A stretch of 21,303 bases of DNA from a virus. This document shows positions 3,231 to 21,303 of the stretch, piece after piece. Numbering within the stretch: the first letter of the stretch is position 1; each line of letters opens with the position of its first letter. The notes below the pieces were generated by a model, which ran no database searches, was not told where the DNA came from, and saw nothing but the letters and a program-made list of their open reading frames with translations. Location: IMG/VR virus record IMGVR_UViG_3300033153_007883, positions 1 to 21,303 of that record, one strand, 5' to 3'. The position numbers were made by a program, and so were the translations under genes.

Positions 3231-3299
3231 GTGGATTTACGATCAATATTTATTTTGGCTGTTGTGCTGTGGGGGTTGTTTCTATGGGCGTTCTTATAA
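3231..3299 (+). CDS. 22-residue single-span membrane peptide
   Basis: GTG 3231 starts immediately after the preceding stop codon, with AAGGA (3219-3223) 7 bp upstream. The peptide starts MDLRSIFI and has about 18 consecutive hydrophobic residues rich in L, V, W and F, ending WAFL before TAA 3297-3299. It would be one transmembrane helix with a tiny charged N-terminus. Small early membrane peptides of phages may inhibit division or modulate membranes (lambda Kil and Ren regions are the positional analogues), but function here is unknown. It is the last gene before an internal promoter. The good ribosome site and precise abutment argue that it is real. Confidence 0.55.
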   Translation: MDLRSIFILAVVLWGLFLWAFL

Positions 3300-3304
3300 A
3301 GACG

Positions 3305-3333
3305 TTGAAATAAGTAATAAGTAGCTATATAAT
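3305..3333 (+). promoter_or_regulatory. Strong internal sigma70 promoter before erf
   Basis: TTGAAA (3305-3310), exactly 17 bp, consensus TATAAT (3328-3333), in an AT-rich non-coding gap of about 70 bp. It should start a transcript near 3340 covering the recombination genes. The leader ends in TAACCAGGAGGT (3353-3364), identical over 12 nt to the ribosome site of the first early gene (1700-1711). Confidence 0.8.
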
Positions 3334-3370
3334 ATATTTAAGAGATGAATAATAACCAGGAGGTATCCTA

Positions 3371-4412: not shown

Positions 4413-5026
4413 TTATTCACGAATTTAAGCAATATTCAGAAGAATACTGGAGAGCTAAGAACGGTAAGCCGTCAAGTAGCAAATTTAGTTGCTTAGTTAC
4501 TGGCACCGGCAAGCCTTCAACCAGCCTCCCGAAATACGCATTGCAGCTCGCAACAGAAATGTACTTAGGCAAGCCCATAGATGATGGGTTTGGCGGCAAT
4601 AAATACATGGATAGAGGTACAGAGCTTGAGCCGTTATCAAGATCAGAGTACGAGATGTTACGCCAAGTTAAAGTGCAAGAGGTTGGTCTTGTTACTGATG
4701 ATCTTATGAGGTACTGCACCTCAACTGACGGACTCATAGGTGATGACGGTGTAGCTGAATTCAAGAATTTAATTTCAACAACCTTTATGGAGGCGCTAAT
4801 TTATTATAAGAAAAACAAAAAAACAGAACCTAAATATATTCCACAACTTATGGGTGAGCTGTTTATCACTGAAAGAAAATGGGTTGATTTGGTTTTATAT
4901 AATCCGGCTTTCTCTGAGCCAATCATTCATCGGCATTACCCGAACAAAGAATACTTTGCTGTTTTAGAAAAACAGTTAATGCTATGCATTGCAGAACGTA
5001 ACAACATATTGAAGCTAGTAAGATGA
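4409..5026 (+). CDS. YqaJ/lambda-exonuclease-family recombination nuclease
   Basis: A 205-residue PD-(D/E)XK nuclease of the YqaJ/lambda Exo type. It resects double-stranded ends to give the single strands used by the ERF annealase. Catalytic residues visible are E near 72-74 (RGTELEP), D107 (STDGLIGDD), E117 and K119 (VAEFKN), with Q146 (PQLMGEL). The D-to-E and D-to-K spacings of 10 and 12 equal those of lambda exonuclease (D119, E129, K131). The start is TTG 4409 with AGAGG 8 bp upstream. The C-terminal region ERKWVDLVLYNP is typical of the family. It overlaps the following HNH-AP2 gene by ATGA. Confidence 0.88.
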   Translation: MIIHEFKQYSEEYWRAKNGKPSSSKFSCLVTGTGKPSTSLPKYALQLATEMYLGKPIDDGFGGNKYMDRGTELEPLSRSEYEMLRQVKVQEVGLVTDDLMRYCTSTDGLIGDDGVAEFKNLISTTFMEALIYYKKNKKTEPKYIPQLMGELFITERKWVDLVLYNPAFSEPIIHRHYPNKEYFAVLEKQLMLCIAERNNILKLVR

Positions 5027-5523
5027 TTTCCGCAGACGAAGCAAAAGAAGTATTAAAGTATAATCCCGAGACAGGGTTTTTATACTGGCGTGCCGACCGA
5101 GGTGAAAATATAAAAGCCGGAGATATGGCTGGCAGACTTAATAAGGCGCTTAGATATATCATAATTTATATCAATAGTAAGCCTTATTATGCACATCGCC
5201 TTGCTTGGTTGATGCATTACGGAAAATGGCCTGCCGAACAGATAGATCATATCAACCACTCTAGGAGTGACAACCGAATTAAAAATTTAAGAGAGGCTTC
5301 CAACCAAGAAAACAATAAAAACTCACCGATTAGATCCACAAATAAATCTGGTGTTACTGGAGTTAGCTGGAAGAAAGAAAAGTCTAAATGGGAAGCGTAT
5401 ATAACAGATAACGGCAGAAAAATTCATCTCGGATATTTTGATGTTTTAGATAAAGCAAAAACAGCGAGAAAAGCGGCAGAAAGAAACCTTAATTTCCACC
5501 CTAATCATGGAGAAAAGAACTAA
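5023..5523 (+). CDS. HNH homing-type endonuclease with AP2 domain (copy 1)
   Basis: A 166-residue mobile endonuclease. An N-terminal strand region (YNPETGFLYWR) leads to the HNH core at about 62-95 (AHRLAWLMHYGKWP, QIDHINHSRSDN, RIKNLREAS), then an AP2 DNA-binding domain at about 110-155 (SGVTGVSWKKEKSKWEAYI, HLGYFD) and the FHPNHG tail. Such free-standing genes cut and copy themselves into homologous phage sites. It is inserted between exonuclease and coiled-coil genes with 4-nt and 1-nt overlaps, so the operon is undisturbed. A paralogue sharing the same domain order and FHPNHG end lies at 16792-17280. Confidence 0.92.
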   Translation: MISADEAKEVLKYNPETGFLYWRADRGENIKAGDMAGRLNKALRYIIIYINSKPYYAHRLAWLMHYGKWPAEQIDHINHSRSDNRIKNLREASNQENNKNSPIRSTNKSGVTGVSWKKEKSKWEAYITDNGRKIHLGYFDVLDKAKTARKAAERNLNFHPNHGEKN

Positions 5524-7424: not shown

Positions 7425-7911
7425 AGAAAAAAGCAACCGCGAAACTCAAAAAGAAAAGATCGCTAGGCTCATCAAAGAACTAAAGGCTGAAAGAAAAGAA
7501 TATAAGCATGTTAGACCAGTTCTTGATAAAAAAATTATTGGAATTGCTTCCCTTAAGCTAGAAAAGCTAGCCCTAGAAAATGAAAATGGTCTGCTTTTTA
7601 AGTTGCGCGACGATTTAGAGGCTGGGATAGATAGTTATGAAGCAAAAGAGCTTATTATGAAAGATAAAATTGATGCTTTATTAAAAACTAAAAGTGACGC
7701 GATGCGTGAGAACATTTTTCACGAAAAAACCTTGGAGAAACTGGACTCATGTATAGAGTTTAGTTTATCGGTTTTACCTGACAATCAGTTTAGCGACAAT
7801 AAGACACAGATAATAAGAACCTTAGATGAGCTGCTAAAAATAATTCATTTAAGATTTGAGTTGGACACAAAAGAAATAATGGAATATTTAAAGGTGAAGG
7901 ACGTTGAGTAA
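7417..7911 (+). CDS. Helical protein inserted between 18-bp repeats
   Basis: A 164-residue charged, largely helical protein. The start (TKEKSNRETQKEKIARLIKE) is likely coiled coil. The C-terminal half holds FSLSVLPDNQFSDNKTQIIR and a last amphipathic helix. No known domain is recognised. AAGGAAA lies 7 bp upstream of ATG. It lies between two exact 18-bp repeats and separates the YbcO-like gene from its apparent original start, so it is a recent acquisition, possibly a cargo (moron) gene with its own function such as host or phage interference. It overlaps the following TTG start by 8 nt. Confidence 0.7.
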   Translation: MTKEKSNRETQKEKIARLIKELKAERKEYKHVRPVLDKKIIGIASLKLEKLALENENGLLFKLRDDLEAGIDSYEAKELIMKDKIDALLKTKSDAMRENIFHEKTLEKLDSCIEFSLSVLPDNQFSDNKTQIIRTLDELLKIIHLRFELDTKEIMEYLKVKDVE

Positions 7912-8206
7912 ACAAGATAAATACACTCACAGCTCCAGAGGCAAACCTTGCCAAGTTCGCATTCCTGGTGTCTGCAAACCAGCACCTGAAAACGAGACAA
8001 CGGTACCGGCACATATTAACGGCTGGGGCATGGGCGGAAAGCACAGTAATATCCACATTGCTTATTGCTGTGACGCATGCCATGAATGGCTTGATGGTGG
8101 TTATGTTCAAACCGACACAGATCGAGCAACACGGGATCGGCTTCACTTGGAAGCGGTTATTAGAACGCAAATTATAATGATTGAAGATGGGGTTTTAGTG
8201 TTATGA
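7904..8206 (+). CDS. YbcO-like (DUF1364) putative nuclease
   Basis: A 100-residue protein matching the YbcO/DUF1364 pattern: RGKPCQVRIPGVCKPAPENE, then ETTVPAHINGWGMGGKHSNI, then CCDACHEWLDGG. The cysteines of CQVRIPGVC and CDACH with H of AHI form an HNH-like metal-binding core. The family is thought to be a small DNA nuclease carried in lambdoid early regions. The start used is TTG 7904, with AAGG only about 3 bp upstream and AAGGTG slightly further. The ancestral start was probably the ATG now at 7380. The C-terminal HLEAVIRTQIIMIEDG is also typical. Confidence 0.85.
   Translation: MSKQDKYTHSSRGKPCQVRIPGVCKPAPENETTVPAHINGWGMGGKHSNIHIAYCCDACHEWLDGGYVQTDTDRATRDRLHLEAVIRTQIIMIEDGVLVL
7909..7926 (+). 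repeat. 18-bp direct repeat, right copy
   Basis: Exact copy of 7385-7402. It spans the stop codon of the inserted gene and the start of the YbcO-like gene. Confidence 0.9.
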
Positions 8207-8216
8207 GGTTAAAACA

Positions 8217-8555
8217 ATGACAATAACACCTGAAAAATTAAAGCAGAGATTACATAAACCTGAAATATTTGTTGGCGATACTACGCTAGCAATTAGCGAA
8301 TTAAGCCGTATACATTTAAAAGACTCTAAATATAGTCAAGGTTTAGCGGTTGGTAAAGATATCGACATAGATCATAATTGCTATAAAAGCATCGCTGGAA
8401 ATGAAAAGTCGGAATTTAAGCTTTATCATGAAGGCGTCGAAATTTGTAGAATTAATCCTGACGGCTCGTATTTCATTTTAAAGGGGTTACGTATTGAATT
8501 TTATTTAAGAGCTCTCGGTGATGCATTAGCTGCGCTGACCAGCAAACATCCATAA
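8217..8555 (+). CDS. Phage protein, unknown
   Basis: A 112-residue protein with ATG 8217 and TGAGG 8 bp upstream. Not recognised. The C-terminal half has beta-like segments (EFKLYHEGVEICRINPDGSY) ending in a helix (LRALGDALAALTSK). No catalytic motif is visible. It lies between two nuclease genes in the early operon. Confidence 0.65.
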   Translation: MTITPEKLKQRLHKPEIFVGDTTLAISELSRIHLKDSKYSQGLAVGKDIDIDHNCYKSIAGNEKSEFKLYHEGVEICRINPDGSYFILKGLRIEFYLRALGDALAALTSKHP

Positions 8556-8573
8556 AAGAGCTGGTATCTGCTT

Positions 8574-8930
8574 GTGAAACACCAAGAAGACTATGAGCAA
8601 ACACTGGTGTTCCAGTGGGCTGCCTATTATCCGGTTTTACGCTGGCTCTACGCTGTCCCGAATGGTGGCAAACGAAGTCCAAAGGAAGCTGCCAGATTAA
8701 AGGCTCAGGGCGTCAAATCCGGTGTATCTGATATGTGCCTACCCATGGTTACGGAAGAGTACCCTGGTCTTTATATCGAGTTAAAACGCAGAAAACAGGA
8801 CGGCCCAAGCAAAGTATCAGCTAATCAGGCGTTGTTTCATAAAGCTATGAAGAAGCAAGGCTATAAATGTGTCGTGTGTTACGGTGCAGACGATGCGATC
8901 CAAGCTATTAAAAAATATGCTAATATTTAG
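8574..8930 (+). CDS. VRR-NUC domain nuclease
   Basis: A 118-residue stand-alone VRR-NUC protein (PD-(D/E)XK superfamily). Family motifs are in order: a helix with Q (QTLVFQWA), the NGGKRS turn, G-V-S-D-M (catalytic D near residue 53), LYIELKRRK (E and K near 69-71), and SANQ with the following FHKAMKKQGY helix. Phage members are structure-specific nucleases, proposed resolvases of recombination intermediates, in keeping with the ERF and exonuclease genes upstream. The start is GTG 8574 with no strong Shine-Dalgarno. It is the last gene before the intrinsic terminator. Confidence 0.9.
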   Translation: MKHQEDYEQTLVFQWAAYYPVLRWLYAVPNGGKRSPKEAARLKAQGVKSGVSDMCLPMVTEEYPGLYIELKRRKQDGPSKVSANQALFHKAMKKQGYKCVVCYGADDAIQAIKKYANI

Positions 8931-8974
8931 ATTAACTTCTCCCCCATAAGCAGGGGTTTAGTTGTACTTACTCT

Positions 8975-9004
8975 GCCAAGATACCCTTTTCTTGGCTTTT
9001 TTTT
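8975..9004 (+). terminator. Intrinsic terminator of the early operon
   Basis: A perfect 7-bp stem GCCAAGA (8975-8981) with TCTTGGC (8990-8996), an 8-nt loop and eight T residues (8997-9004). A weaker CCCC/GGGG stem precedes it near 8942-8956. The next gene's Shine-Dalgarno follows the T run directly. Confidence 0.92.
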
Positions 9005-9014
9005 GGAGAATGAC

Positions 9015-9428
9015 TTGAAAACTAGAAAAGATAGGCTTCGTTTTGAATCCAAATACAAGGTAAATGAAAAAACTGGCTGCTGGGAATGGACGGCCGGAAA
9101 ATTCAGTCATGGCTACGGTTTTTTTGTGGACGAAGGAAAAACAAGGGGTGCCCATAGGGTGTCATACGAGCTATATGTATCTCACATTCCAAAAGGTTTG
9201 ATCGTTTGCCATAAGTGTGACAACCGGAAATGCGTAAATCCTTCGCATCTTTTTCTTGGTACTTATCAAGATAACGCCACAGATATGATAGAAAAAGGCC
9301 GCGCAAGCTGGCAAAAAGACGGATATTGGGAAAAACGCCGCGAAAAATTGAAAAAAGAACAAAAACAGCTAGAATGTGATTACTTACTAACAAAAAATGA
9401 TGAATTATGGAACGCTTTATTCACATAA
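9015..9428 (+). CDS. HNH_3-type homing endonuclease
   Basis: A 137-residue HNH endonuclease. After a basic N-terminus come the strand [16 protein letters not shown] and the HNH core: AHRVSYELY, then [19 protein letters not shown], and the tail helix [13 protein letters not shown]. It is the standard stand-alone phage HNH_3 gene. TTG 9015 is chosen because GGAG (9005-9008) lies 6 bp upstream; a frame from TTG 9003 would put the start inside the terminator T run. It sits just beyond a strong terminator, so expression needs read-through or antitermination. It overlaps the next small ORF by 22 bp. Confidence 0.88.
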
Positions 9429-9601
9429 CACCAGAAGTAGCAATGGCCATCCAAAAGGGTGAGCGTGATTACGCCCACCTTTTATGCGATATGGAAATTG
9501 AGCAGGCGCCTAAAGTCATTACTATTCCCGTCAATAAATTTAACGAGAACAAAAAACAGGCTTATGATTACCTTGAGCGCGAGCTGCGCAATGCGTGCTA
9601 A
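9407..9601 (+). CDS. Small phage protein at the end of the plus block
   Basis: A 64-residue protein, not recognised, probably helical at the C-terminus ([16 protein letters not shown]). It begins 22 bp inside the HNH gene in another frame and its TAA (9599-9601) overlaps the TAG of the convergent holin gene. It may be older than the HNH insertion. Function is unknown. Confidence 0.5.
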
Positions 9602-10095
9602 CCAGTCTTAGTTTTATCTTTAGATCCAGACGAGCTGCCAAACCAAAATTGTAAAATATTTGCCACGCCAGCCGTCAGAACGCCAATTAATGTTGATACT
9701 AATACCGTCTGCGAGTGGTCAACAACAAATTTCCCAGTGATTAAAGCGTAAACCAACACAAAGTAACCGCCGATAAATACGCCGGACAATATGATTTGTG
9801 GCCGCTTATCAACGCTGAATAACTTCCTGGCATCTTTCCGGTCTTCAACGACTAACTGTTTTTCTTCCAACCCAATACGTTTCATTTCAGTCTTAAATTC
9901 AGCATCGAGCTCTTTTATTTTGAATAGTAAATCGGGATTTGCGTTATTTACCATTTCCTCAATCACGTCTTCGCCAGCTTCTTCATCGCCAGTTAATTTA
10001 CCGCTCAGGAATTTTGCTGCCATTCCGCCGAACGGCCCACCCAACGCGGTACCCAGTACCGGTGCAATTGATGCAACTATATCTTTCCAGCCCAT
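9598..10095 (-). CDS. Three-TM holin
   Basis: A 165-residue holin of the 3-TM type (as in the Holin_3TM/GTA holin family). Hydrophobic segments lie at about 6-30 (SIAPVLGTALGGPFGGMAAK), 100-120 (ILSGVFIGGYFVLVYALITG) and 129-152 (VLVSTLIGVLTAGVANILQF), with a charged helical linker between the first and second and a short polar tail. It forms the membrane lesions that release endolysin at lysis. It is the last gene of the leftward late transcript, downstream of the endolysin and two membrane-anchored coiled-coil genes. Its stop overlaps that of the convergent plus-strand gene, and no terminator is visible in the junction. Confidence 0.85.
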   Translation of the reverse strand: MGWKDIVASIAPVLGTALGGPFGGMAAKFLSGKLTGDEEAGEDVIEEMVNNANPDLLFKIKELDAEFKTEMKRIGLEEKQLVVEDRKDARKLFSVDKRPQIILSGVFIGGYFVLVYALITGKFVVDHSQTVLVSTLIGVLTAGVANILQFWFGSSSGSKDKTKTG

Positions 10096-10096
10096 G

Positions 10097-10372
10097 TTAT
10101 CTCTCCCTTATATTCTTTATTTGTGTTTTCTTATTAATAATGATGGCTTTTATCATGGCCGTTTGCTGCTTATCGTGAACATATAAAAGTTTAATTTCTA
10201 GCTCGGATATCTCTCTATTTATTTGCCGGACAACCATAATCTCCTGATCTTGCTTATATTCTGTTTTTTGAACCCACTGTAAGTTTCCGGCAAAAATAGC
10301 AGTAGTGAAGAACAAAAGTATGCCTGCCCATATTGACTTTACGTTGCTAAAAAATTTAGCGAGCTTTTCCAT
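10097..10372 (-). CDS. Lysis-cassette membrane protein, single TM plus coiled coil
   Basis: A 91-residue protein with one N-terminal transmembrane segment at about 14-31 (SIWAGILLFFTTAIFAGNL) and a helical, charged remainder. This inner-membrane anchor plus periplasmic coiled coil is the layout of an i-spanin (Rz-like), fitting its place between endolysin and holin. No outer-membrane lipoprotein (Rz1-like) with a lipobox was found nested in its frames, so spanin identity is tentative. It directly follows the 99-residue gene (1-nt overlap). Confidence 0.6.
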   Translation of the reverse strand: MEKLAKFFSNVKSIWAGILLFFTTAIFAGNLQWVQKTEYKQDQEIMVVRQINREISELEIKLLYVHDKQQTAMIKAIIINKKTQIKNIRER

Positions 10373-10671
10373 TATTTTTTACCTTTCACCATAAGAATAT
10401 ACACCTCATCGATTCTCGAATGAACTTTATCAACCTTTTCTAAAATTTTATCTTGTTGATTTTTGAGATCTTCCTGGCACTTATGCATATCTGCATAAAC
10501 AATATTGAATCTGCGGTTAATTTCTGAGACTGGTACATGAGATTCAGCTAGTTCATCCCACTTTTTCATTTGCCTTTTCCCAAAAAGCCCCACTAAACCC
10601 AACAACCCAACTATAATCCAAACACCTAAATCAATGATTCCAGACGCTAAATATTCTATAATATCTTTCAT
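10372..10671 (-). CDS. Lysis-cassette membrane protein with coiled coil
   Basis: A 99-residue protein from ATG 10671, which follows the endolysin stop by 1 bp; a longer frame to 10755 lies inside the endolysin gene and is not preferred. A transmembrane helix lies at about 10-31 (GIIDLGVWIIVGLLGLVGLF), then basic residues (GKRQMKKW) and a coiled coil to the end. Topology and position fit a lysis accessory such as an i-spanin or antiholin-like protein. No sequence signature decides between these. Confidence 0.6.
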   Translation of the reverse strand: MKDIIEYLASGIIDLGVWIIVGLLGLVGLFGKRQMKKWDELAESHVPVSEINRRFNIVYADMHKCQEDLKNQQDKILEKVDKVHSRIDEVYILMVKGKK

Positions 10672-10672
10672 T

Positions 10673-11104
10673 TTAGAGTAGCTCAATATGGGCCATATCC
10701 CAACCATAGGGAATGCCGTTCTTGTATTTCGGTATTTTACGTTGCCAGAATCCACCCCATTTAACGCTCACTTTTAATATGCTGGCCGCCTGCAAATGTG
10801 CTGCCGCTACCATAGCCAAATGATGTGATTTCCAGCTTGCAGCGCCATTCACAAAAGCATAAAAATCCAACGCTTTAGAAAAGCCGTCGTCTGCTGGTTG
10901 GTGATTGCTTAGGTCGATATAGCCATCAGCTTTAGAAAAGCCGTCGAGGTATAACCCGTTTTGTGTTTCTGCTGTTCTTGAGCCACCGTGTTCTGGAATA
11001 CCGAAATCGATAACAGATATTTCTAACGCTAGATCGTTGACCGCAATTAAATCTGAATCAACGCCTTCGCGTCTTTCTAATGATCTTTGGCTTAGAATAA
11101 ACAT
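10673..11104 (-). CDS. M15-family peptidase endolysin with an altered active-site loop
   Basis: A 143-residue peptidoglycan peptidase of the M15 (VanY/L-Ala-D-Glu peptidase) type. Visible landmarks are the start FILSQRSLERREGV, the GGSRTAETQNG motif, H68 in SNHQ, D80 in ALDFYAF, and D136/H139 in WDMAHIEL, which give the zinc ligands and catalytic acid. The family usually reads SxHxxGxAxD, with H and D seven residues apart; here the gap is twelve, because DGFSKA is repeated (residues 54-59 and 73-78) and inserts DGFSK between them. The underlying DNA is an 18-bp direct repeat. It cuts the cell wall during lysis after holin action. Whether the expanded loop is still active is unknown. Confidence 0.85.
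   Translation of the reverse strand: MFILSQRSLERREGVDSDLIAVNDLALEISVIDFGIPEHGGSRTAETQNGLYLDGFSKADGYIDLSNHQPADDGFSKALDFYAFVNGAASWKSHHLAMVAAAHLQAASILKVSVKWGGFWQRKIPKYKNGIPYGWDMAHIELL
10872..10946. repeat. Internal 18-bp direct repeat in the endolysin gene
   Basis: GCTTTAGAAAAGCCGTCG occurs at 10872-10889 and 10929-10946, 57 bp apart, in the same reading frame (DGFSKA on the minus strand). Confidence 0.9.
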
Positions 11105-11107
11105 GGT

Positions 11108-11392
11108 TTAACTGTAGTAGCTAATATTTACTACAGCAGACGCGGTGACTTCAATGAACTGTAGTTTATTGAGGTTGCCAGAATAAACAAACGGCTCATT
11201 GACCGGCAGGTACATTCCAATACCAGCCGTGGGGGCAGTGCCGTCATCACGCCATGTGACAGCCTGAGTAGCGCAATTAATAACTGCAAGCCGTGCGCCA
11301 GCGGGAACAGTCAGCCCTTTGGCTGAGCTGAGTCCAGTTAATTGTTCAAACCCCATAGGGGTACGTTTTTCAAATTGTCCTATGCCAATCAT
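11108..11392 (-). CDS. Small phage structural-module protein, unknown
   Basis: A 94-residue beta-rich protein (GLTVPAGARLAVINCATQAV, MYLPVNEPFVYSGNLNKLQF). Similar short proteins lie between tail and lysis genes in many tailed phages and may be virion components, but no name applies. It starts 30 bp after the previous stop, with a GAGG Shine-Dalgarno, and is 3 bp from the endolysin start. Confidence 0.65.
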   Translation of the reverse strand: MIGIGQFEKRTPMGFEQLTGLSSAKGLTVPAGARLAVINCATQAVTWRDDGTAPTAGIGMYLPVNEPFVYSGNLNKLQFIEVTASAVVNISYYS

Positions 11393-11422
11393 AATAAGTG
11401 CCTCACTGTCTCACGACGTTAG

Positions 11423-11641
11423 TTATTCAATATAAGTTGTATCAGATACTTCCAATTTTTGCTCGCTTTTTTCCATATCTAAAATTTCTTTTGCAAACTC
11501 AATTTTTCCGCGTAGTGTGGCGGTGTCCGCAGCATTAAGATCATTATCGTTCTCAATGCGCAGTTCTTCCAGTCTTTTTTCGCAATGTTCTTTTACTGCA
11601 ATCCACTCAATGCTTGCTCTGTCTTTTATTTTTTTAGTCAT
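11423..11641 (-). CDS. Small helical phage protein
   Basis: A 72-residue charged, helical protein with the pattern W-VKEHCEKRLEELRIEND-D-ADTATLRGKIEFAKEIL. Such short C-E-(R/K)-L-LR-N-TA-LRG proteins recur beside large virion genes in podovirus-like genomes as I recall; function is unknown. Its ATG overlaps the stop of the polyvalent gene by 1 nt. Confidence 0.65.
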   Translation of the reverse strand: MTKKIKDRASIEWIAVKEHCEKRLEELRIENDNDLNAADTATLRGKIEFAKEILDMEKSEQKLEVSDTTYIE

Positions 11642-14600
11642 TACTGGGCCTCAATTGCATCATCGTACTTCATAGAAAAACTCATCATCTTCTGACGAAT
11701 TTCGTTTTTCACCGTCAACGCTTTAAAAGAAAGACTATAGACCTGATAGTTTTCTTCCCTGTACTCAGACCATTTATCAGTGCCTTTGTGTATTTTTAGT
11801 TGAGCTTTTACTGCAGCCACCTGCTTAAGCGCTTCATAATACCGCTCTGAATCAAAACGCGATCCAGGCTGTCCAACCATAGACCGGATAAAGGGAATAT
11901 CTCTTGTTTCTATTTCTTCATCAGTTGCAAGCTTAACCCCTAAACTAGTTACTCTTGTTGCAAACATGCCAGCGCCGCCAGTGAGCCATCTAGTATAATG
12001 TTTAACAGTTTCCGGCGACCAGTCCCACCAACCTGGATGCGTTTCATCTCCTCCCGTTAATTCATTTAAACTAATAAATGTATCTTTAAATAATTCATTG
12101 GTTGAGCCAAAAAACTTTTGTGAGCTTGGGCGATCATATTGATCGAATATATACTCCGGCCTTACATTTCCACCCATGAAATTAATATTGCGCGCATCTT
12201 GCTCGTATGGTTTCACAATGGTTGGCGTTAACGAATCAAGTAAATCTGCCCCTTGAATTGGGTTGTAGCCATTTAATACCGCAGTTAGCATATTCATCGC
12301 CGTTTTAGATGATGTTGCCCGAGGATTAAACATCGCGTCGTGTGTTGCTAACCCAGTATAGTGAAATACGTTATAACCATAAGGCATTCGATATTTAAAG
12401 TATTTCCCGCCACCGCCTATACCAACTTCATAATCCCCATCAGGATGCATGAAAATAATATTAGTTTGTTTTTCGTAGTCGCTGACTTTTTCCCAGTACG
12501 GTATTCCATCATCATCATCGCCTGCACCGCTATTGTACAGCGCATTAAGGAATCCAAAGGTAGCTATGCCAGCAACAATCCGGCGCGTTCCTTTGTGCTT
12601 AGATATCGAGCTTATTATGCGAGCAGAACCTTGTATCGTTACGCTTGAGAATAACCATAAACTATTAAATACTGGTGCCCACTCACCTTTTCTATTGAAG
12701 TTAACCGTAAGGTTTTTAGCAACAGATCCGGCTTTCGCTATTGCCTCCGCTTTTGGCGCACCGTTAGCCATAAGTTCTTCTTTAATTACTTTATAGGCGG
12801 CCAATCTAACTCCGTTCTCAACCGCCAAGTTAGCATCAAGCGTTAAGTCGCGAACAACGATAACCCCTCTTTTTGTTGCGCCCCATACCCCACGCTTTCG
12901 TTTAAGTTTGTTATGTAAGTGCCTGACCTTTGTATCAATATCCTCCAGCCCAAAGAAACCTATTGCGCCACCTTCTTTTTGCATTTCATCCCACAAGTCT
13001 CTCATCTCTGATTGACCTTTAGTGTCAAACACGCCCTGCCAAATACCACGCATAGCTGACGGCACTTCTTTTATTGCTTTGTACATTAATTTTGCTGAAT
13101 GCTCACCAGCAAGATGAATCCCTGCCGTTTGAATGTCGCGCTGGAAGTTGCCAAGAACAAATTCTGGATACAATCCAGTGTAAACCATAGCTAGGTATCG
13201 ATTGACTTGGCCGAACCCCCTTATGATTGCATTGAGCTGAGTAGTATTTGCTTTTAGAAGCTGCTCCATTACTATTCGATCTTCAATCTTAATAAGGATC
13301 TCTTCGCCTTCCACCATCACGCCAAACACGTCAGGCCGATGCTTGTAGTTTCTATCTAACTTATAAACGGTTTTTTTTTTTTTTTTCCTTCCTTCGGCTT
13401 TTGCCTTAATGCGCTCCTCAATCGTAATACCCATTACCTTTTTGTAGTCAATATTATTGACCATCTCTGGAGGTGCAATTTCATAACCTTCAAATGGTGT
13501 ACCGTATAAATCCTCAAACTGTTTATATGTTCTTTGTCCTATACTCCAAAATTCTGGATCAGGGTTAGCACGCACTAATTCAACTAATGCTTGGCCGACT
13601 TTTGCTTTTCCTGTGCGAACAATCGCTGTTTCTGATTGAGCGAAGCTGTGCGCCGTTGGGCTTTCTGGTAAATTACCTTCACCTCGACCCATAGGGTGTT
13701 TGAATTGCGATCCAGTTATATTATAACCAACGCCAGTGCCCATTCTATAATCTTCACCGTCCTTACCTTTTAACGGTACATAATAGTCCCAGCGTTCCCG
13801 TAGCTCATCAACAACATCCTGTTTCATGTGGCCTTCTTTGACAAGCAAATCCAATGTTTGATTGTTCGCTTCGTAAACAATTTTAGCCGCAGCCTCTAAA
13901 TCTGTTTTTTTGCTTTCCATTTCAAGCAAGATTTCATTAGCTTGCTGCGTTGTCATACCAGAGCCGCCATCCTGCATCTCATCATTAATGCCGGCGATGT
14001 ACTCGTTTCGTTCTTGCGCATGCTTAGCTATTAGATAGAGATCAACTTCTTCAATGGTTAAATCTTTTTTGTCCAGTATTTTTATAAATGGCTTCTGATA
14101 TTTCTTGTCAAACTCTTTTAACCCATAAGATATTTTACTGCTTGAGCGCTCCTCTGCGAGGTAAACGTCTGCCTTAAGTTCAATTTTTCCACCCTTAGCG
14201 ATAATTGTTTCCTGCATTTTTTTAACGCGGTTGAACGAGTCCTGAGCCAGCCTAACAAATAAATCTTTTCTACCTTCTTCGGGCATACCTAGTGATTGTC
14301 CAACAGGTGAATTGGCTGCATCATCAGCTGCACGGCTAAACACAACATTGGGATCATTAACGTCATGCGCTGGCTGAGATTTAGAGAAAAACACATTTCC
14401 CCGTGACCCAAGATCTTCGCCCGCTTCAACCTGGCTATAGATGCTTACGCCTTCCCGAATAAAAGAATCCAATAAACGAAGCCCTTCTAATTTTTGGAAA
14501 TATGTATTCAGGTTATCCGCAGCATCGACACTATCTGACACAACAATTACTGCCGCCGCGTTTGTTTGATCGAGCGCTTTAAGTATTCTCGGAACCTGCT

Positions 14601-16791
14601 TGGTTGCACGCAGGCTTATCATCTCTTCTTGTGACATTGTTAATATGCCAATTACGGCATGTTTATTATCCAAAAGAAGGACGCCATTTTTCGTGGCTTC
14701 GTTTCTTATAAATTCTTTTGCTGATGAGCTATCGCTAATTTGATATGCGCGCTCCATTTTACGCTTGCGGATCATTCTTTCAGTCACCGGCACCGTTCTT
14801 TTTCTAGGCATTGGCTTAACTTCTATCGATCCAAGCTCTTCGCCACTCCTATCGAGGGCGTGCGCTCGTTTTCCTTTACCAAGAATAACGTGGCCTTTTA
14901 CGCTAACACCGGATCCATCAAGTGCATCGTACAATCTTTTTGTGATTTGTATATCTGCAGAAGATGGTGTTGAGATGCCGGTAGGGTGATTATGTGCAAA
15001 CCAAACGCTTGCCGCTTTATCGGTCGCGCCAATTGCTGCACCAAGTTCCACTGGACTTACGTTAGCACCATCTTTTACACCTTTAGTGTGACGAATAACG
15101 TGAAGCACTTTATTGTTCTTATCAAGAACAAGGGCCATCATGGTTTCTTGGGCGTGTTTACGGATAGGTGCGAGCACGTGCGCAGCTTCTTCGGCGCTAC
15201 TTACGGTATCAAGCCCGGTGTTGAGCGTTCCAACTTCAACTTGCTTGTATTTAATATTAAAGTTATCTGTTGTTTGAGTTCTTACTGTTTCAGCCGGCAC
15301 ACCTTTTGGTGATAAAAGATCTAATTGCTTCGCAAACAACGGCTGCCCTTCCATTGCTGCGGTATCAGGGGCAATATAATCTGCACGATAAGATACTTCT
15401 GTCTGTTGGTAAACTTGGGGTCGAATCTCTTTACGTAAATTTGCTTCACTTAACCGGATCAATGCATTTACTTCTTTATGGCTAATCGTATCCAGCATTA
15501 ACCCGAGCTTATTAAGCAACTTGATAATTGCGTCATAGATTTTAGTGAGTAAATTAGATTCTGTTTTGGTTTCTGCAGCATGAGCCAGCATCTCGTCAGC
15601 TATTTTCCGCACGTCGTTTTGCTTAACCAGTTCAGGGTATGCTTTAGCAACCCAGTCATATTGCGCTTTAAGCTCACCAGAACGTGCCTCATACACGCGA
15701 TCAAGCAGCTTATCAAATGATCCGTCCTCATTTAAAAGCTGGCGTAAGCCGTAGTGTCCAACAACCTCATGGCGAATTACGGCCATTGCATCGTTAATGT
15801 CGGTGATGTTTTCAGCGATCAGCACAATCTCATTGGTGCCAGAATAGAAGCCGCCTCTAATAATCCCGTTTTCTGTAACTGAATTAATACCAAACGCTTC
15901 TTCTTGAGTGCTGCGAATATGGAAAGTGATCGCTCTTGTACCTTGATTGTTAGTTTGAATATTTTTAACCAGTTTAGTTAGTGATTCTACCGATACACTT
16001 TTCTTTGGTTTTTTCGAGATAGGATCGTCACGTTGAACAAAGTCACCTGTCTCAAGTAGTTTTCCATCCATGCCGATATTAGCTGGACGTTTACTGTAAA
16101 AATCTTTACGCGCATCAGCACTTTTTTTCGCTATATCCTCAGCGGTTGATTTTGGTTTTTGAGCTACCACTTTAGTTGGTTCGCGATACATGCTTTCACT
16201 TACTTCAAAGTTTTTGTTTTTTCCTTTGTTTTCAACAAAACCAAATCTTTTGTAAAACTTAACAAGCCTTTGTTTTGATGTTGTGCCCTCAATTAAGTCT
16301 GGGGTTAATTCAATACGTTTGCCTTTAGAATTTGAATAGTCAACAATCTCTTGCATTACGATTGTTCCAACACCTTTCTTTCTTTCTGCCTCAGAAACAT
16401 TAACCATGTTTAAAATTACAGAATCTTTTCTTTCTGAAATACTAATTTTCTCTAGTTTGTATTTAGATTTTAATCGTGACTCTAATTGCTTACCTGCTTT
16501 TTCGGCTAAAACTTCTTCTGTTTTTTCTGCGGGGATTGGTTTAGGTTTTGGAATAGGGGTTAAATCAGGCTGTTGGCCAGCTTCTTTTAATACAGTAGGA
16601 AATGTTTCGTTAAACAATTGGAGATATTCTTTACGTTCTTGTTCAACCGAAGCAAGCACATCATCAATTGCTAATCTCGCCGCTTCGTCCTGACTCATTG
16701 AATCTTTATATGAATCAAAGGATTCCAGCACCGACTCTACATCTGCATCATCAAGATTAGCCGTTATTTCTATGCAATTTTTTAAACTCAT
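11641..16791 (-). CDS. Giant polyvalent (probably ejected) protein: GNAT, zincin-like, RadC/JAB, LPD-like
   Basis: A 1716-residue multidomain protein. Residues about 105-205 form a GNAT-like acetyltransferase region (SEAERKKGVGTIVMQEIV, LVKFYKRFGF). At about 340-350, RHEVVGHYGLR followed by ADEMLAHAAE near 398 looks like the zincin-type domain of polyvalent proteins; the motif is HExxGH rather than classic HExxH. At about 513-650 is a RadC-type JAB/MPN domain with E582 (SPVEL), H600 and H602 (AHNHPTG) and D613 (TPSSAD), the complete JAMM set. The C-terminal 700 residues are long helical regions resembling large polyvalent-protein-associated (LPD38-type) segments. Such proteins are thought to be packaged and injected to modify host or defence proteins. 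There is no clear Shine-Dalgarno; ATG directly follows the HNH stop (TAGATG). Confidence 0.85.
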   Translation of the reverse strand: MSLKNCIEITANLDDADVESVLESFDSYKDSMSQDEAARLAIDDVLASVEQERKEYLQLFNETFPTVLKEAGQQPDLTPIPKPKPIPAEKTEEVLAEKAGKQLESRLKSKYKLEKISISERKDSVILNMVNVSEAERKKGVGTIVMQEIVDYSNSKGKRIELTPDLIEGTTSKQRLVKFYKRFGFVENKGKNKNFEVSESMYREPTKVVAQKPKSTAEDIAKKSADARKDFYSKRPANIGMDGKLLETGDFVQRDDPISKKPKKSVSVESLTKLVKNIQTNNQGTRAITFHIRSTQEEAFGINSVTENGIIRGGFYSGTNEIVLIAENITDINDAMAVIRHEVVGHYGLRQLLNEDGSFDKLLDRVYEARSGELKAQYDWVAKAYPELVKQNDVRKIADEMLAHAAETKTESNLLTKIYDAIIKLLNKLGLMLDTISHKEVNALIRLSEANLRKEIRPQVYQQTEVSYRADYIAPDTAAMEGQPLFAKQLDLLSPKGVPAETVRTQTTDNFNIKYKQVEVGTLNTGLDTVSSAEEAAHVLAPIRKHAQETMMALVLDKNNKVLHVIRHTKGVKDGANVSPVELGAAIGATDKAASVWFAHNHPTGISTPSSADIQITKRLYDALDGSGVSVKGHVILGKGKRAHALDRSGEELGSIEVKPMPRKRTVPVTERMIRKRKMERAYQISDSSSAKEFIRNEATKNGVLLLDNKHAVIGILTMSQEEMISLRATKQVPRILKALDQTNAAAVIVVSDSVDAADNLNTYFQKLEGLRLLDSFIREGVSIYSQVEAGEDLGSRGNVFFSKSQPAHDVNDPNVVFSRAADDAANSPVGQSLGMPEEGRKDLFVRLAQDSFNRVKKMQETIIAKGGKIELKADVYLAEERSSSKISYGLKEFDKKYQKPFIKILDKKDLTIEEVDLYLIAKHAQERNEYIAGINDEMQDGGSGMTTQQANEILLEMESKKTDLEAAAKIVYEANNQTLDLLVKEGHMKQDVVDELRERWDYYVPLKGKDGEDYRMGTGVGYNITGSQFKHPMGRGEGNLPESPTAHSFAQSETAIVRTGKAKVGQALVELVRANPDPEFWSIGQRTYKQFEDLYGTPFEGYEIAPPEMVNNIDYKKVMGITIEERIKAKAEGRKKKKKTVYKLDRNYKHRPDVFGVMVEGEEILIKIEDRIVMEQLLKANTTQLNAIIRGFGQVNRYLAMVYTGLYPEFVLGNFQRDIQTAGIHLAGEHSAKLMYKAIKEVPSAMRGIWQGVFDTKGQSEMRDLWDEMQKEGGAIGFFGLEDIDTKVRHLHNKLKRKRGVWGATKRGVIVVRDLTLDANLAVENGVRLAAYKVIKEELMANGAPKAEAIAKAGSVAKNLTVNFNRKGEWAPVFNSLWLFSSVTIQGSARIISSISKHKGTRRIVAGIATFGFLNALYNSGAGDDDDGIPYWEKVSDYEKQTNIIFMHPDGDYEVGIGGGGKYFKYRMPYGYNVFHYTGLATHDAMFNPRATSSKTAMNMLTAVLNGYNPIQGADLLDSLTPTIVKPYEQDARNINFMGGNVRPEYIFDQYDRPSSQKFFGSTNELFKDTFISLNELTGGDETHPGWWDWSPETVKHYTRWLTGGAGMFATRVTSLGVKLATDEEIETRDIPFIRSMVGQPGSRFDSERYYEALKQVAAVKAQLKIHKGTDKWSEYREENYQVYSLSFKALTVKNEIRQKMMSFSMKYDDAIEAQ
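13371..13386 (-). other. A16 homopolymer, possible slippage site
   Basis: Sixteen consecutive T on the plus strand, read as A16 in the coding strand of the polyvalent gene (lysine run near residue 1136). After insertion or loss of one A, stop codons appear within three to four codons: TAA after N-R-L, or TAG after P-F-I-S. Slippage would release a product of about 1140 residues lacking the C-terminal third. Confidence 0.6.
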
Positions 16792-17280
16792 CTAAATTCT
16801 GCCGTGATTTGGGTGGAAGCTGTGTTTATTTTCTGCTGATTTACGAGAGCAAGCAGCTTCAAACTTATCATTAAATCGACCAAGATGCTTTTGTTTTCCA
16901 TTAATCCAAATGTTAGATTCCCATTTTTTTCTTTTTTTATTCCAGCAAACGCCCATTACCCCAGACGTATTGTTTTTGCTTATAGTTCTGTTTTTTTGAT
17001 TTTCTTGGTGAGTTGCTTCGCGCAAATTAACCCACCTATTGTCGTCACGGACGTGATTTTTATGATCTATCTGTTCTTTTGGCCAGTCGCCTGTCATGTA
17101 AAAGAAAGCTAAACGGTGAGCTTTATAGTCTTTATTGTTAACGCTAATTTGAATATAGCCGTCACTCTTGTAGCACGGAACGTCGCCCGCCTTTACGCCG
17201 CCGGTTCTATTAACCAGCCACGTAAAAATGCCGGTACCTGGATTATAATGTAGCAGCTCTTTTAATTCTTCTTGGTTCAC
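16792..17280 (-). CDS. HNH homing-type endonuclease with AP2 domain (copy 2)
   Basis: A 162-residue paralogue of the 5023-5523 gene. The same order is visible: YNPGTGIFTWL strand region, HNH core (AHRLAFFYMTGDWP, EQIDHKNHVRDDN, WVNLREAT), AP2 domain (TSGVMGVCWNKKRKKWESNI, HLGRFND) and FHPNHG end. GTG 17280 overlaps the upstream stop by 1 nt, and its TAG abuts the ATG of the polyvalent gene. As a mobile gene it has inserted in the late operon without breaking neighbours, but it now sits where the polyvalent gene's ribosome site would be expected. Confidence 0.92.
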   Translation of the reverse strand: MNQEELKELLHYNPGTGIFTWLVNRTGGVKAGDVPCYKSDGYIQISVNNKDYKAHRLAFFYMTGDWPKEQIDHKNHVRDDNRWVNLREATHQENQKNRTISKNNTSGVMGVCWNKKRKKWESNIWINGKQKHLGRFNDKFEAACSRKSAENKHSFHPNHGRI

Positions 17281-17552
17281 TATATTAAGCTCTTAGTTAT
17301 CATAGCCATAATCATAGCACTAATTTCTTCGTCTTCAGCCAAAATCCTTCTACGGCGAGTTTCAAGCAACGCATCTTCTCGCTGGCGAACATAACCTGGA
17401 TCATATCGACCGCCACCGCCAGTGCTAGGGATCTCTGGCTTTGGTTCCACAACAGGCGGTATAACAATCTCACCCGTAACAGCGCCCAAACCAAGTGCTA
17501 TTTGCTTGCTGCCTGCAAAACCTAAACCGCTGCCAGGAAGTAAATTAAACAT
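17280..17552 (-). CDS. Small phage structural-module protein
   Basis: A 90-residue protein. The start MFNLLPGSGLGFAGSKQIAL is of a type I recall in small proteins of podovirus-like tail modules; it is followed by a proline-rich, glycine-rich middle and a charged helix (DALLETRRRRILAEDEEISA). Function is unknown, possibly a virion part. Its ATG overlaps the stop of the appendage gene by 1 nt. Confidence 0.65.
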   Translation of the reverse strand: MFNLLPGSGLGFAGSKQIALGLGAVTGEIVIPPVVEPKPEIPSTGGGGRYDPGYVRQREDALLETRRRRILAEDEEISAMIMAMITKSLI

Positions 17553-18844
17553 TAAACTGTATTCTCAAGTTCTACAGCTAAAGTCCCAGCTGCTAAATCA
17601 GTAATATCGGCGCCTGTTGAATCAGTGAGTTTCTTGCGTAATATCTCAGAGCCACCGGAAACCTCACCTACGCCATAAACAATAAGGTACCAACTTGACG
17701 CGATTTTCTTGAGTTCTTTAAGATTTTTAATAATTCCAACCAGAAGCGCGCCATCAACGTGATTCCATACCTCAGTAGGCGTTGTCTTGTCGTTTACCGT
17801 GCATCCTGCACCTGAGTTATCAACAGGTGTTGTTGTGCCTTTTATATTTACTGTCCCTGCTGTGCAAGTTGAATCTATTGTTAATTCTCCGCCTGGCGAA
17901 TCGAAGTTGATTAAATTAGAGTTTGTCATATTGGTGATCTTTAATAACCCAAGATAATGATGTATATGAATATTTCCTGTTGACCCATTTATATCTAATA
18001 TAACGCCTGCTCCAGAGCTTGCACAATTTAATATATGTATTTTTCTAGTGTTATCCCCCCTTATTTGAATAATCCCCTCATCTAAAATACAGTTTTTAAT
18101 AGCTGATTCTGCTGTAGTACAACCTATTCCTGTAACACCATTAAGATGACAGTCTTGAATATAAAGCGCACCACTTAGATCATCCACAAGCTCTAAATCT
18201 TTAAATTCTGTATCGCCTGTAGTTGCTCCCGATACAGAAGTTAGTTTTGTCTGTAAAGAGTTAATCCCTATTAGGGTGTAAGTATTTACATTATCTGTTG
18301 CGCCTAAAGTCACGTCATCAACGACATATATGGTTTTAAATCCTTTAGCAACAGCTTGTGTTTGTACGTCTGCTAAGTTCTTTAATGGATTAGCTTCGTT
18401 TCCATCTGTGTTTGAATCGGTGATGCTTGTTTTACCGCTTACCGCATCCCAATAAATACCGCTGTTAAAAGTCGAAAACACTAATATAGATTGGTCAATA
18501 AACCCTGTTGTATTATTGGTATTGACAGAAACTTGGTTTTTAACCTCAGCATCACGGATATTAGTATTACCATTGATGATGTTCACAGAATAAAGTCCAT
18601 CCTCAAATTGTATGCGGTAAAAGTTCAAGTCTAAGTCAGTAATGGACGGGGTTGATGCGGTCGCGGCTATTCGTGTAAACAGGAATGGATAGGGAATGGC
18701 TTCGGCCGAATCAGCAAAGTCTCTTAATAACCCCCAATAATCGTCCACAGTTAAATTGTACTTAGTGCCAGAATCTAACGATAGGTCAGCTTTAGGTACA
18801 GTAATCACCCACGGGGAAACACTCCAATTTATGCTAATCGTCAA
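17552..18844 (-). CDS. Tail-appendage-like beta-helix protein
   Basis: A 430-residue protein, using TTG 18844 because GGAGG lies 8 bp upstream and homologues I recall start with an INW-type strand; an open frame with TTG/ATG at 18862/18859 continues through that ribosome site. N-terminal features are ISINW, VITVPKADLSLDSGTKYNL and YRIQFEDGLYSVNIINGNTN, a pattern of phage tail or head-decoration proteins. The middle is a series of short strands with N/D/G turns (ALYIQDCHLNGVTGIGCTT, IHILNCASSGAGVILDING), suggesting a parallel beta-helix. The C-terminus carries a small alpha/beta segment. It is probably a virion surface protein; the exact role is not known. Confidence 0.7.
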   Translation of the reverse strand: MTISINWSVSPWVITVPKADLSLDSGTKYNLTVDDYWGLLRDFADSAEAIPYPFLFTRIAATASTPSITDLDLNFYRIQFEDGLYSVNIINGNTNIRDAEVKNQVSVNTNNTTGFIDQSILVFSTFNSGIYWDAVSGKTSITDSNTDGNEANPLKNLADVQTQAVAKGFKTIYVVDDVTLGATDNVNTYTLIGINSLQTKLTSVSGATTGDTEFKDLELVDDLSGALYIQDCHLNGVTGIGCTTAESAIKNCILDEGIIQIRGDNTRKIHILNCASSGAGVILDINGSTGNIHIHHYLGLLKITNMTNSNLINFDSPGGELTIDSTCTAGTVNIKGTTTPVDNSGAGCTVNDKTTPTEVWNHVDGALLVGIIKNLKELKKIASSWYLIVYGVGEVSGGSEILRKKLTDSTGADITDLAAGTLAVELENTV

Positions 18845-19046
18845 CGGTACTTCCTCCATCAAAGTTTTTAATTAACATTGTTGTATATCTTTGCTCAAGC
18901 TGATTGAGTTTTACATTCATTGTATTTATTAATTTCTCTAAATCATCTATTTTTTTCGTAACCTCAATGCGCGTTGATTCTGCTTTATCAATCGCAGCGC
19001 GGGCATTTCTCGTGGCTATTTCAGACCATGCTTTTTCTTCACTCAT
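18834..19046 (-). CDS. Small coiled-coil phage protein
   Basis: A 70-residue, almost fully helical protein (AAIDKAESTRIEVTKKIDDL, INTMNVKLNQLEQRYTTML) with heptad spacing. It sits between two virion-like genes with overlaps of 1 and 11 nt and could be a small structural or assembly protein. Function is unknown. Confidence 0.65.
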   Translation of the reverse strand: MSEEKAWSEIATRNARAAIDKAESTRIEVTKKIDDLEKLINTMNVKLNQLEQRYTTMLIKNFDGGSTVDD

Positions 19047-20920
19047 TAGTCGTCACTCGTCATAACAGAAACTGCATCAAAACCGGCTGATGTTGAGATT
19101 GTGCCATTTAATGAGCCTTGTTTAAAATAAGGGGCGGAAGTGCTTTTACGTGTATAGCCTGTTACGGGTTGCGCCGTACCATAAACTCTTGAAACGCTTA
19201 ATTCTCCATTAACGTCTGTTACTCCATCCAAAGCAACAAAAGTACAGGTAATTGTGCCTGTAGCTGGCGTCGTTGGTGAATTTGCCACCTCATAAGTGTA
19301 TTCGTTTGCAGTCGTGACCGTAATGGACGCGATAATATTATAATCTTGCTGATCTGCATCACGGATTAAAATTTTATCACCTGTTGCCATTCCATGAGCG
19401 GTATGAGCTACGGTTGCTGTAGTGGTTGCTCTTGTGATTGTAACCACATCCTCAAAAGGAAAATCTCCTGTCCCATCCGAAGCTTTTAATACCACAATAG
19501 CGGATTGAATAGGTGTGCCATCTGCTTCTTTTGTTGTCACTTTAACTGATACAGATCCAGCTACAACCGTCATCGTGCCACTGTTAGTGTTGCTGTATTC
19601 TCCCGCAGCTGTATTCGTACCTTCTGTGGCATTAATAGTGACATCTGCATTTGTGCCTGAGTTAATACCATGCCAAATAGTGCCGCTTGAATAATCACCG
19701 AAGAAGATAAAATCTTCCAAGGTTAAATCATAATCCCCCGTATAAGGGAAGTTCAGCATATATTGTGTAGTGGGGGTTCCTGACGTTATGAAATTAATTT
19801 TTTTACCATTATGCGTTAATGTGCCGCCGGACGGCGTTTGCGGGAATTTATACCCGTAATTATTTGCATTCCCAGTGGGATCAATAATAAAGATATTAAG
19901 CATTTCAGCGCCGTTATTTGTTGCGCCACTATCAACTTCGTTACAATTAGTAAATGTTGCGGAGATAACCGACGTTTTTCCGTTATCGTCAAATAAAACG
20001 CCTGCCTCAGCCCCTTTAAAAGAGGAACCGTAAAATTTTACGCTGTTGCTGGCATTGCCACCTAGATTGGTGGATAAATCTATATTGTATTTTTCGCCAA
20101 GCGCATCCATATTTAAGCCTGATACGCCTTGCCTTGCATCTCCCGTACCCACTACAGAGCCCAGAGTTATGTCGGTTATTCCTGTTGAGCTGCCTAACGA
20201 TAAACCGTAAGCTGAGGTTGATACAGGTAAATCAGCCCATCTGAAAGTGGAACCTTCATCAGAGAACGTGCAGGCATCCGTGCCGTTATCATTAAATTGA
20301 AGCCTACCTTTACCGATAAAAACACCATTTTGCTTATCAATTAATCCAGAAGCGTCTGCATCAATTAAATCAAATACTTCCTGAAAGCCACTGCCTGCGG
20401 TTGTTGTTGTCCCTGTAATGGTAATCGTTGGATCGCCATAGTACATGGCATCAATATGCGCGTTATCATCTAAATTTTTTGCAAGCATTTTAAAGCCGAC
20501 ACCAAGGTCAACAATATCTGTCAGAGTCGCCGCTGTTCCATTATTTGCATCTGGCGTATTTCCACAGTAAGCAACGAAGAAAACCCAACCCCCAGCATAA
20601 GTATCTGAACCACCTACATACCAATAAGACTCATTGCCTGAACTATCCCTAACTGCAATTTGCATACCGCCCAATGCTTTAGTATCAACATCACCCGCGT
20701 TAGAAATGCGAAGCCAAACACCTATATGCTTGGTGGACATATCCGCTGGCGGCGTATCAGTAATATTAAAATTATATAAAGTCTCTATATCAACATCATA
20801 GCCTACATAACCAGCGCCAGACCTTTGCCCCTCTGTGTAAGCTGTAGTTGTTGCTTCATCAAAAACATCAGTATCATGTTCCGATAAAAGCGTCATACCA
20901 TTTGTAACGGTTAATGCCAT
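19046..20920 (-). CDS. Large beta-rich tail/appendage-like protein
   Basis: A 624-residue protein rich in G, T, S, N and D. Residues about 1-170 form a jelly-roll-like beta domain (HIGVWLRISNAGDVDTKALG). About 170-440 looks like a beta-helix or repeat of short strands (ITDITLGSVVGTGDARQGVS). A C-terminal Ig-like segment, roughly 455 onward, contains TATVAHTAHGMATGDKILIR and the A-D-Q-QDYN motif common in phage tail and fibre proteins. It has no signal peptide or enzyme motif. Overlaps with neighbours (10 bp upstream, 1 bp downstream) put it in the late operon. It is likely a virion protein; which part of the tail cannot be told. Confidence 0.7.
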   Translation of the reverse strand: MALTVTNGMTLLSEHDTDVFDEATTTAYTEGQRSGAGYVGYDVDIETLYNFNITDTPPADMSTKHIGVWLRISNAGDVDTKALGGMQIAVRDSSGNESYWYVGGSDTYAGGWVFFVAYCGNTPDANNGTAATLTDIVDLGVGFKMLAKNLDDNAHIDAMYYGDPTITITGTTTTAGSGFQEVFDLIDADASGLIDKQNGVFIGKGRLQFNDNGTDACTFSDEGSTFRWADLPVSTSAYGLSLGSSTGITDITLGSVVGTGDARQGVSGLNMDALGEKYNIDLSTNLGGNASNSVKFYGSSFKGAEAGVLFDDNGKTSVISATFTNCNEVDSGATNNGAEMLNIFIIDPTGNANNYGYKFPQTPSGGTLTHNGKKINFITSGTPTTQYMLNFPYTGDYDLTLEDFIFFGDYSSGTIWHGINSGTNADVTINATEGTNTAAGEYSNTNSGTMTVVAGSVSVKVTTKEADGTPIQSAIVVLKASDGTGDFPFEDVVTITRATTTATVAHTAHGMATGDKILIRDADQQDYNIIASITVTTANEYTYEVANSPTTPATGTITCTFVALDGVTDVNGELSVSRVYGTAQPVTGYTRKSTSAPYFKQGSLNGTISTSAGFDAVSVMTSDD

Positions 20921-21303
20921 TGCTTAAACCTATGTGCCAATACAATTCCTGCCGCTGTTTCAGCGTGTACAGGTAATCTTGAAGGGATACTAATTTTGTT
21001 TGCAAAGTAATCTAAATTACTATAATCAGAACCGAAAATATAAGTGGCGTTCTCAGGATGTTTGAATTTATATAGCGATTCCCCGCCCTGCTCAATCACT
21101 ACAACGTGGCCACCGGCGAACTGAATTGCTCTATGAATATTATTAAACGCTTTAAACTCAACTTCGGCATCGTTTATTTGAATATCTTCACCTGTAACGC
21201 AATATAATTTATGTATTCCAAAAGCTTTGCATGTTAAACCCCATCGAGACAAAAGCTTTTTTTTGCCGTGCGGAGTATCAAGCCCCTTTGGCGTGTCCCA
21301 ATG
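20911..21303 (-). CDS. SPOUT/TrmH-like methyltransferase-related protein, partial
   Basis: The frame is open across the right edge; a TTG at 21252 exists but has no Shine-Dalgarno, so the true start is probably outside the window (visible upstream residues include HWDTPKG and GKKKLLSR). Three stretches fall in the order of SPOUT (SpoU/TrmH) motifs: SRWGLTCKAFGIHKLYCV (motif 1, AFGI), ATYIFGSDYSNL (motif 2, GSE-like), and ISIPSRLPVHAETAAGIVL (motif 3, with HAE in place of the usual SLN). SPOUT enzymes methylate RNA ribose or base with SAM in a trefoil knot. It lies at the head of the visible late genes. A structural protein resemblance is not excluded, and catalytic activity is uncertain. Confidence 0.5.
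   Translation of the reverse strand, partial: HWDTPKGLDTPHGKKKLLSRWGLTCKAFGIHKLYCVTGEDIQINDAEVEFKAFNNIHRAIQFAGGHVVVIEQGGESLYKFKHPENATYIFGSDYSNLDYFANKISIPSRLPVHAETAAGIVLAHRFKQWH

Follow-up and report, generated by a model that had tools for sequence, protein, structure and literature searches.

The window, meaning the whole stretch of DNA analyzed here, is the entire 21,303-base virus record IMGVR_UViG_3300033153_007883, which is probably a phage genome fragment. On its minus strand lies an intact open reading frame for a 1716-aa candidate polyvalent protein, a class defined by Iyer et al. in 2017, who described GNATs, HEXXXH zincins, RadC, and LPD38 in such proteins (PMC5512222). The features are listed by window coordinates, with residues numbered in the protein.

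11641..16791 (-): whole candidate polyvalent protein gene, 1716 aa plus stop, reading frame intact
16567..16791 (-): conserved N-terminal ~75 aa, common to relatives L012, L026, and L027 (phmmer 1.5e-26 to 2e-16)
16174..16518 (-): GNAT acetyltransferase domain, residues 92-206, exchangeable cargo
15430..15966 (-): zincin-like metallopeptidase domain, residues 276-454
15754..15771 (-): HEVVGH, an HExxxH motif (H341, E342, H346)
15592..15594 (-): E400, probable third zinc ligand
14839..15240 (-): JAB1, a RadC-type JAMM domain, residues 518-651 (E549, H600, H602, D613)
14395..14790 (-): JAB2, a degenerate JAB-like domain, residues 668-799, metal ligands lost
11644..14349 (-): C-terminal helical module, residues 815-1716, putative virion and ejection role
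11887..12495 (-): LPD38 (PF18857), residues 1433-1635, inside the C-terminal module

Pfam matches LPD38, RadC, and GNAT on the protein and nothing else. A sequence-only reading had named the frame at 11641-16791 and its acetyltransferase, zincin-like, and JAMM domains, all of which are borne out here, while missing the second, degenerate JAB and the C-terminal LPD38 module. Its phrase of three modifying activities is too strong, since the zincin may process its own polyprotein and the activity of RadC-type JABs is only proposed. A polyvalent protein combines at least 2 domains of disparate activity, and GNAT, zincin, RadC-type JAB, and LPD38 are present in this one. We considered whether the frame might be a truncated or frameshifted longer gene and rejected that, because the 3 relatives begin at the same place and have the first ~75 aa in common with it, which shows the start codon to be correct and the protein to be full length. 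The N-terminal part perhaps has to do with assembly or packaging.

On the flanks, the only PHROG matches are to a downstream endolysin and an upstream HNH endonuclease, and no head genes were identified in the 21-kb window. The sister contig G001, which holds L012, has its polyvalent gene downstream of head and tail-fiber genes and just before lysis genes. Polyvalent proteins are also expected to be encoded on invasive elements, close to genes for virions or transfer, and this is what we find, with a virus contig here and head, tail-fiber, and lysis genes on the sister contig. The tail module proposed earlier finds partial support in the syntenic relative, with head and tail-fiber genes upstream; the flanks in the window are mostly without a PHROG match.

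The upstream HNH endonuclease gene (phrog_99; 16792-17280, minus strand) exactly fills the interval from a 90-aa gene (17280-17552) to the polyvalent gene; in L012, L026, and L027 nothing separates the 90-aa gene from the start of the polyvalent gene. By this comparison it is a probable mobile-gene insertion that left both neighbors intact; an insertion inside the polyvalent reading frame is rejected because it lies between 2 complete genes. Plus-strand genes at 5023-5523 and 9003-9428 are also HNH endonucleases by eye, the first resembling the gene at 16792-17280, which suggests repeated HNH-gene invasion of this phage.

The enzyme domains

Acetyltransf_1 of Pfam matches residues 123-185 at 21.7 bits, against a cut-off of 20.7. 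The acetyl-CoA loop reads R137-K-K-G140-V-G142, and an R/Q-x-x-G-x-G/A loop is found in nearly all of the 16 distinct GNAT relatives listed, so the earlier recognition of a GNAT loop stands. The combination of GNAT with a RadC-type domain, also pointed out then, is real, and it is uncommon in our sample because none of the 100 5'-complete relatives has GNAT and JAB1 together. Judged from these sequences, GNAT, zincin, and RadC in one protein appear to be an unusual combination.

The zincin region has no Pfam match over residues 276-454. What had been read as HExxGH is indeed there as HEVVGH, with HExxxH spacing, that is, one residue more than the classical HExxH, and most homologous segments have the HExxxH form. 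The ligands in the window protein are H341, E342, H346, and E400, and among distinct homologous segments the H-E pair is kept in 68/69 and 69/69, the second H in 67/67, and the downstream E corresponding to E400 in 67/69. An HExxH or HExxxH motif followed by a glutamate on the next helix identifies zincin-like metallopeptidases, and this domain has both; the HExxxH variant has been described for polyvalent proteins (Iyer et al. 2017, PMC5512222). We modeled residues 225-830 with AlphaFold2 from 13 sequences, excluding from the folding input the MAFFT alignments A3, A5, and A8 of mixed fragments, in which some domains were misplaced. The model has a pLDDT of 67.6 overall and about 75-90 in the domains. 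Its zincin part aligns with lethal-factor metallopeptidases (VIA, Z ~8), a score not far above background and within the range that the fold-comparison tool calls common, so the zincin call rests mainly on the conserved residues.

JAB1 is matched by Pfam RadC with E = 2e-22, and E549, H600, H602, and D613 are invariant in 11 aligned JAB1 domains. The JAMM ligands are complete, as claimed earlier, but the glutamate is E549 and not E582 as then named, which lies in a variable region and is not conserved in the 11 domains. The closest fold is that of RadC from Chlorobium tepidum (2qlc), which shares the ligands and superimposes on the JAB1 model with Z = 14.5 and an rmsd of 2.6 over 122 residues. 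JAB1 has the E, H-x-H, and D ligands together with the RadC fold that mark a RadC-type JAB/JAMM domain. The curated whole-protein cut-offs for RadC are missed (NF000642, 77.8 of 180 bits; TIGR00608, 71.3 of 133.85 bits); the 1716-aa protein has the JAB domain but is not a RadC protein, and standalone RadC, unlike it, has neither a degenerate JAB nor a virion module. An activity on nucleic acids or nucleotides has been proposed for RadC-type JABs (Iyer et al., PMC5512222).

Directly after JAB1 comes JAB2, in which the metal ligands are absent in 7/7 aligned members; the H-x-H and D of JAMM enzymes are missing from it. We regard a JAB origin of this domain as probable. In the AlphaFold2 model its elements run in the same order as in JAB1 (helix, 2 strands, helix, strand, helix, 2 strands) at a pLDDT of about 80-90, the profiles of the 2 domains align in register, and in 2 relatives JAB2 has VHGG at the position of HNHP in JAB1. 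That it is instead an unrelated alpha/beta domain without a JAB fold seems unlikely against these points, even though the profile match is weak (probability 22-50%, P about 2e-4 to 1e-3), Pfam RadC scores JAB2 alone at E = 0.055 with unrelated families scoring similarly beside it, and the likeness of fold is one of element order within an AlphaFold2 model. Searching the PDB by sequence with JAB2 turned up nothing meaningful.

The terminal module and its exchanged cargo

LPD38 is matched at 122.7 bits, against a gathering cut-off of 27, and it is only part of a mostly helical module of ~870 aa (model pLDDT 79, pTM 0.76) that, taken as residues 815-1716, makes up more than half of the protein. 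Module relatives were taken from the best 80 of 554 viral-contig stretches and from 75 loci in bacterial or other genomes, most of them from Pseudomonadota. The module sits at the very end of the polypeptide, with a median of 1 residue from module end to C-terminus (10-90% range 0-15.5; 136 non-redundant 3'-complete proteins), whereas total length among 5'-complete relatives reaches 4671 aa with a median of about 2690. The module model matches numerous predicted phage proteins whose names refer to large polyvalent domains. A PDB search with the module returned 89 matches, 0 of them at E <= 0.001, which does not by itself prove a new fold; because the module has no solved structural relative, calling it an ejection module rests on LPD38 homologs in virions. 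Pseudoalteromonas phage vB_Pun_Y3 has a giant protein with a zincin and a related capsid protein; the module was not found in the 3 vB_Pun_Y3 proteins tested.

The closest relatives keep the 2 ends of the protein and exchange what lies between. L012, L026, and L027 have modules 56-60% identical over the aligned part and retain both the zincin and the N-terminal ~75 aa. Where the window protein has its GNAT, L012 carries a Tas1/RelA-like domain (phmmer 2.6e-4), followed by zincin, JAB1, and JAB2; L027 has a Tas1/RelA-like segment (by eye), then zincin, JAB1, JAB2, and ART; and L026 has zincin, ART, and GNAT, without a JAB. The more distant L003 and L008 lack a JAB and have the zincin and the module, to which L003 adds a GNAT.

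According to section 33 of Iyer et al., RadC is found only in polyvalent proteins of conjugative elements and LPD38 only in those of phages (PMC5512222), although the RadC section of the same paper mentions prophages too. This split is not strict. At least 13 distinct proteins have both RadC and LPD38 (the window protein, L012, L027, L030, L056, L058, L121, L131, L134, L135, L152, L167, and L168), and in 7 of the 13 JAB1 is followed by JAB2; a degenerate JAB accompanies the RadC-type JAMM as it moves. In 2 scans of viral contigs, the L167 and L152 JAB pairs had no hits. JAB1-JAB2 and an HExxxH zincin also share one reading frame of a conjugative plasmid of Pseudomonas sp. KHPS1 (NZ_CP100552), with the zincin after the JAB pair rather than before it and a HELGH-motif region in place of the LPD38 module. 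The set of domains therefore moves between phages and conjugative elements, and the tandem of an active and a degenerate JAB appears, from these sequences, to recur in phages and in one conjugative plasmid. We found no earlier description in the literature consulted of such a JAMM pair in a phage setting; the JAB1-JAB2 tandem, the combination of RadC with LPD38, and the extent of the terminal module are new. On the plasmid, the polyvalent reading frame (L181:6800-12229) reaches upstream of the annotated CDS 7826-12232, and the JAB1-JAB2 part lies largely outside the annotated gene.

Three groups of known proteins give the nearest comparison. The phage LPD38 proteins of Iyer et al. are likewise big multi-enzyme polypeptides with an HEXXXH-type MPTase, a RimI-clade GNAT, and a late-gene position; the window protein adds a RadC-type JAB and a degenerate second JAB, and its conserved C-terminal unit is ~870 aa against their 189-aa LPD38. 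The Bcep22 gp75 group and the DarB-like gp69 of Burkholderia podovirus JC1 also have LPD38 at the C-terminus, and BcepMigl gp69 of that group can be aligned with the entire module (28% identity, E = 1e-69, over 827 residues). JC1 gp69 differs in being 4515 aa long with a lytic transglycosylase, methylase/helicase, and LPD3, and its domain table has no GNAT or RadC. The 2810-aa open frame of Stx podoviruses (Traversvirus) has LPD38, a 30% identical module, and the same late position, but its cargo is LPD5, LPD1, and MuF_C.

Proposed delivery and its alternatives

The window protein belongs with the phage polyvalent proteins of Iyer et al. 2017 because of its C-terminal module, the virion protein of JC1, and the exchange of cargo, and on the sequence comparisons it is probably packaged and ejected. 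Its likely role, as we see it, is that of several enzymes delivered in one package. The C-terminal module, LPD38 included, would hold the protein in the virion and take part in ejection, the first ~75 aa would be a second constant part, and the exchangeable enzyme domains would ride between the two. After entry the HExxxH zincin might cut its own polypeptide, or host proteins, freeing the domains; a freed GNAT might acetylate a host protein, and JAB1, with catalytically dead JAB2, might hydrolyze a substrate that is nucleic acid, nucleotide, or protein. All that follows packaging is our inference, as is any benefit to the phage. Injection, zincin processing, and counter-defense are all proposals of Iyer et al. 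(PMC5512222). Self-processing is not assured, because N4 vRNAP has an MPTase yet is packaged uncleaved (PMC5512222).

The sequence-only reading had the protein carried in the virion and ejected from it. This is well supported by homology, through the LPD38 module and the LPD38 protein gp69 of the podovirus JC1, which was detected in CsCl-purified virions by mass spectrometry with 51 unique peptides (PMC9144972); these published proteomics on a relative support a virion location here by homology. The counter-defense role is the published proposal for the polyvalent class (PMC5512222). The same JC1 data, and the late-gene neighborhood of the relatives, speak against a protein that is made late and acts unpackaged in the infected or lysogenic cell, for example in superinfection exclusion or host take-over. 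Such a role would fit the suggestion that polyvalent proteins, once captured, may act against incoming elements (Iyer et al., PMC5512222), and packaging of the window protein itself is argued from homologs, but we hold it to be very unlikely. It is somewhat less improbable, though still unlikely, that we are dealing mainly with a structural internal virion (ejectosome) protein whose enzymes serve assembly or transit, the zincin for instance cutting virion proteins, rather than counter-defense. No part of the protein is larger or more constant than the helical module, the zincin outnumbers every other accompanying domain that was scored, and in the sister phage a tape-measure gene was not recognized among the genes tested, all of which would suit an ejectosome component. 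A purely structural role does not explain the fast exchange for unrelated effector-type domains (ART, Tas1/RelA-like, GNAT, methyltransferase).

As for the JAB pair, it might be a deconjugase of the ubiquitin-like tags of anti-phage systems (Bil or type II CBASS), with JAB2 as inactive partner as in MPN+/MPN- pairs. JAB1 has 4 of 4 ligands, the tandem with a degenerate JAB recurs, and BRCC36, AMSH, and a bacterial Ubl-deubiquitinase complex are among the other fold matches of JAB1. These score Z 6.7-8.9 against 14.5 for RadC, and RadC-type JABs have been argued to lack the groove for the ubiquitin tail (Iyer et al., PMC5512222). A search of a defense library gave no significant match, with one weak JAB hit outside the JAMM, and altogether a deconjugase strikes us as improbable. 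We give similarly little credence to a broader proposal, in which JAB1-JAB2 would be a mobile catalytic and pseudo-catalytic JAMM pair of injected phage and plasmid proteins, a unit acting on entry, for example by removing such tags, and the LPD38 module a general delivery part with exchangeable payload. Many Pseudomonadota phages and prophages share the module and swap enzyme cargo, and if it is the delivery part, it offers a handle on how phages inject large proteins and on which early effectors they bring.

Some further observations concern the late region. The endolysin slot holds a phrog_465 type in the window (10673-11104, minus strand), and the gene in that slot in L012 (11789-12220) is unrelated and lysozyme-like by eye. 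Proteins at 17552-18862, 19046-20920, and 20911-21303, all on the minus strand, are late-region proteins without a PHROG match; the C-terminus of the first is similar to that of its syntenic counterpart in L012 (4035-5336). On G001 a second giant gene lies upstream (L023:12583-18912), a 2110-aa open frame with methyltransferase-type PHROG matches. It matches phrog_10691 at positions 2359-2475 and the window protein matches at 3062-3835; the L023 protein resembles the inner part of single longer proteins, and the window ends before the corresponding region. To judge from these alignments, the giant genes of the sister phage are possibly one polyvalent protein split in 2.
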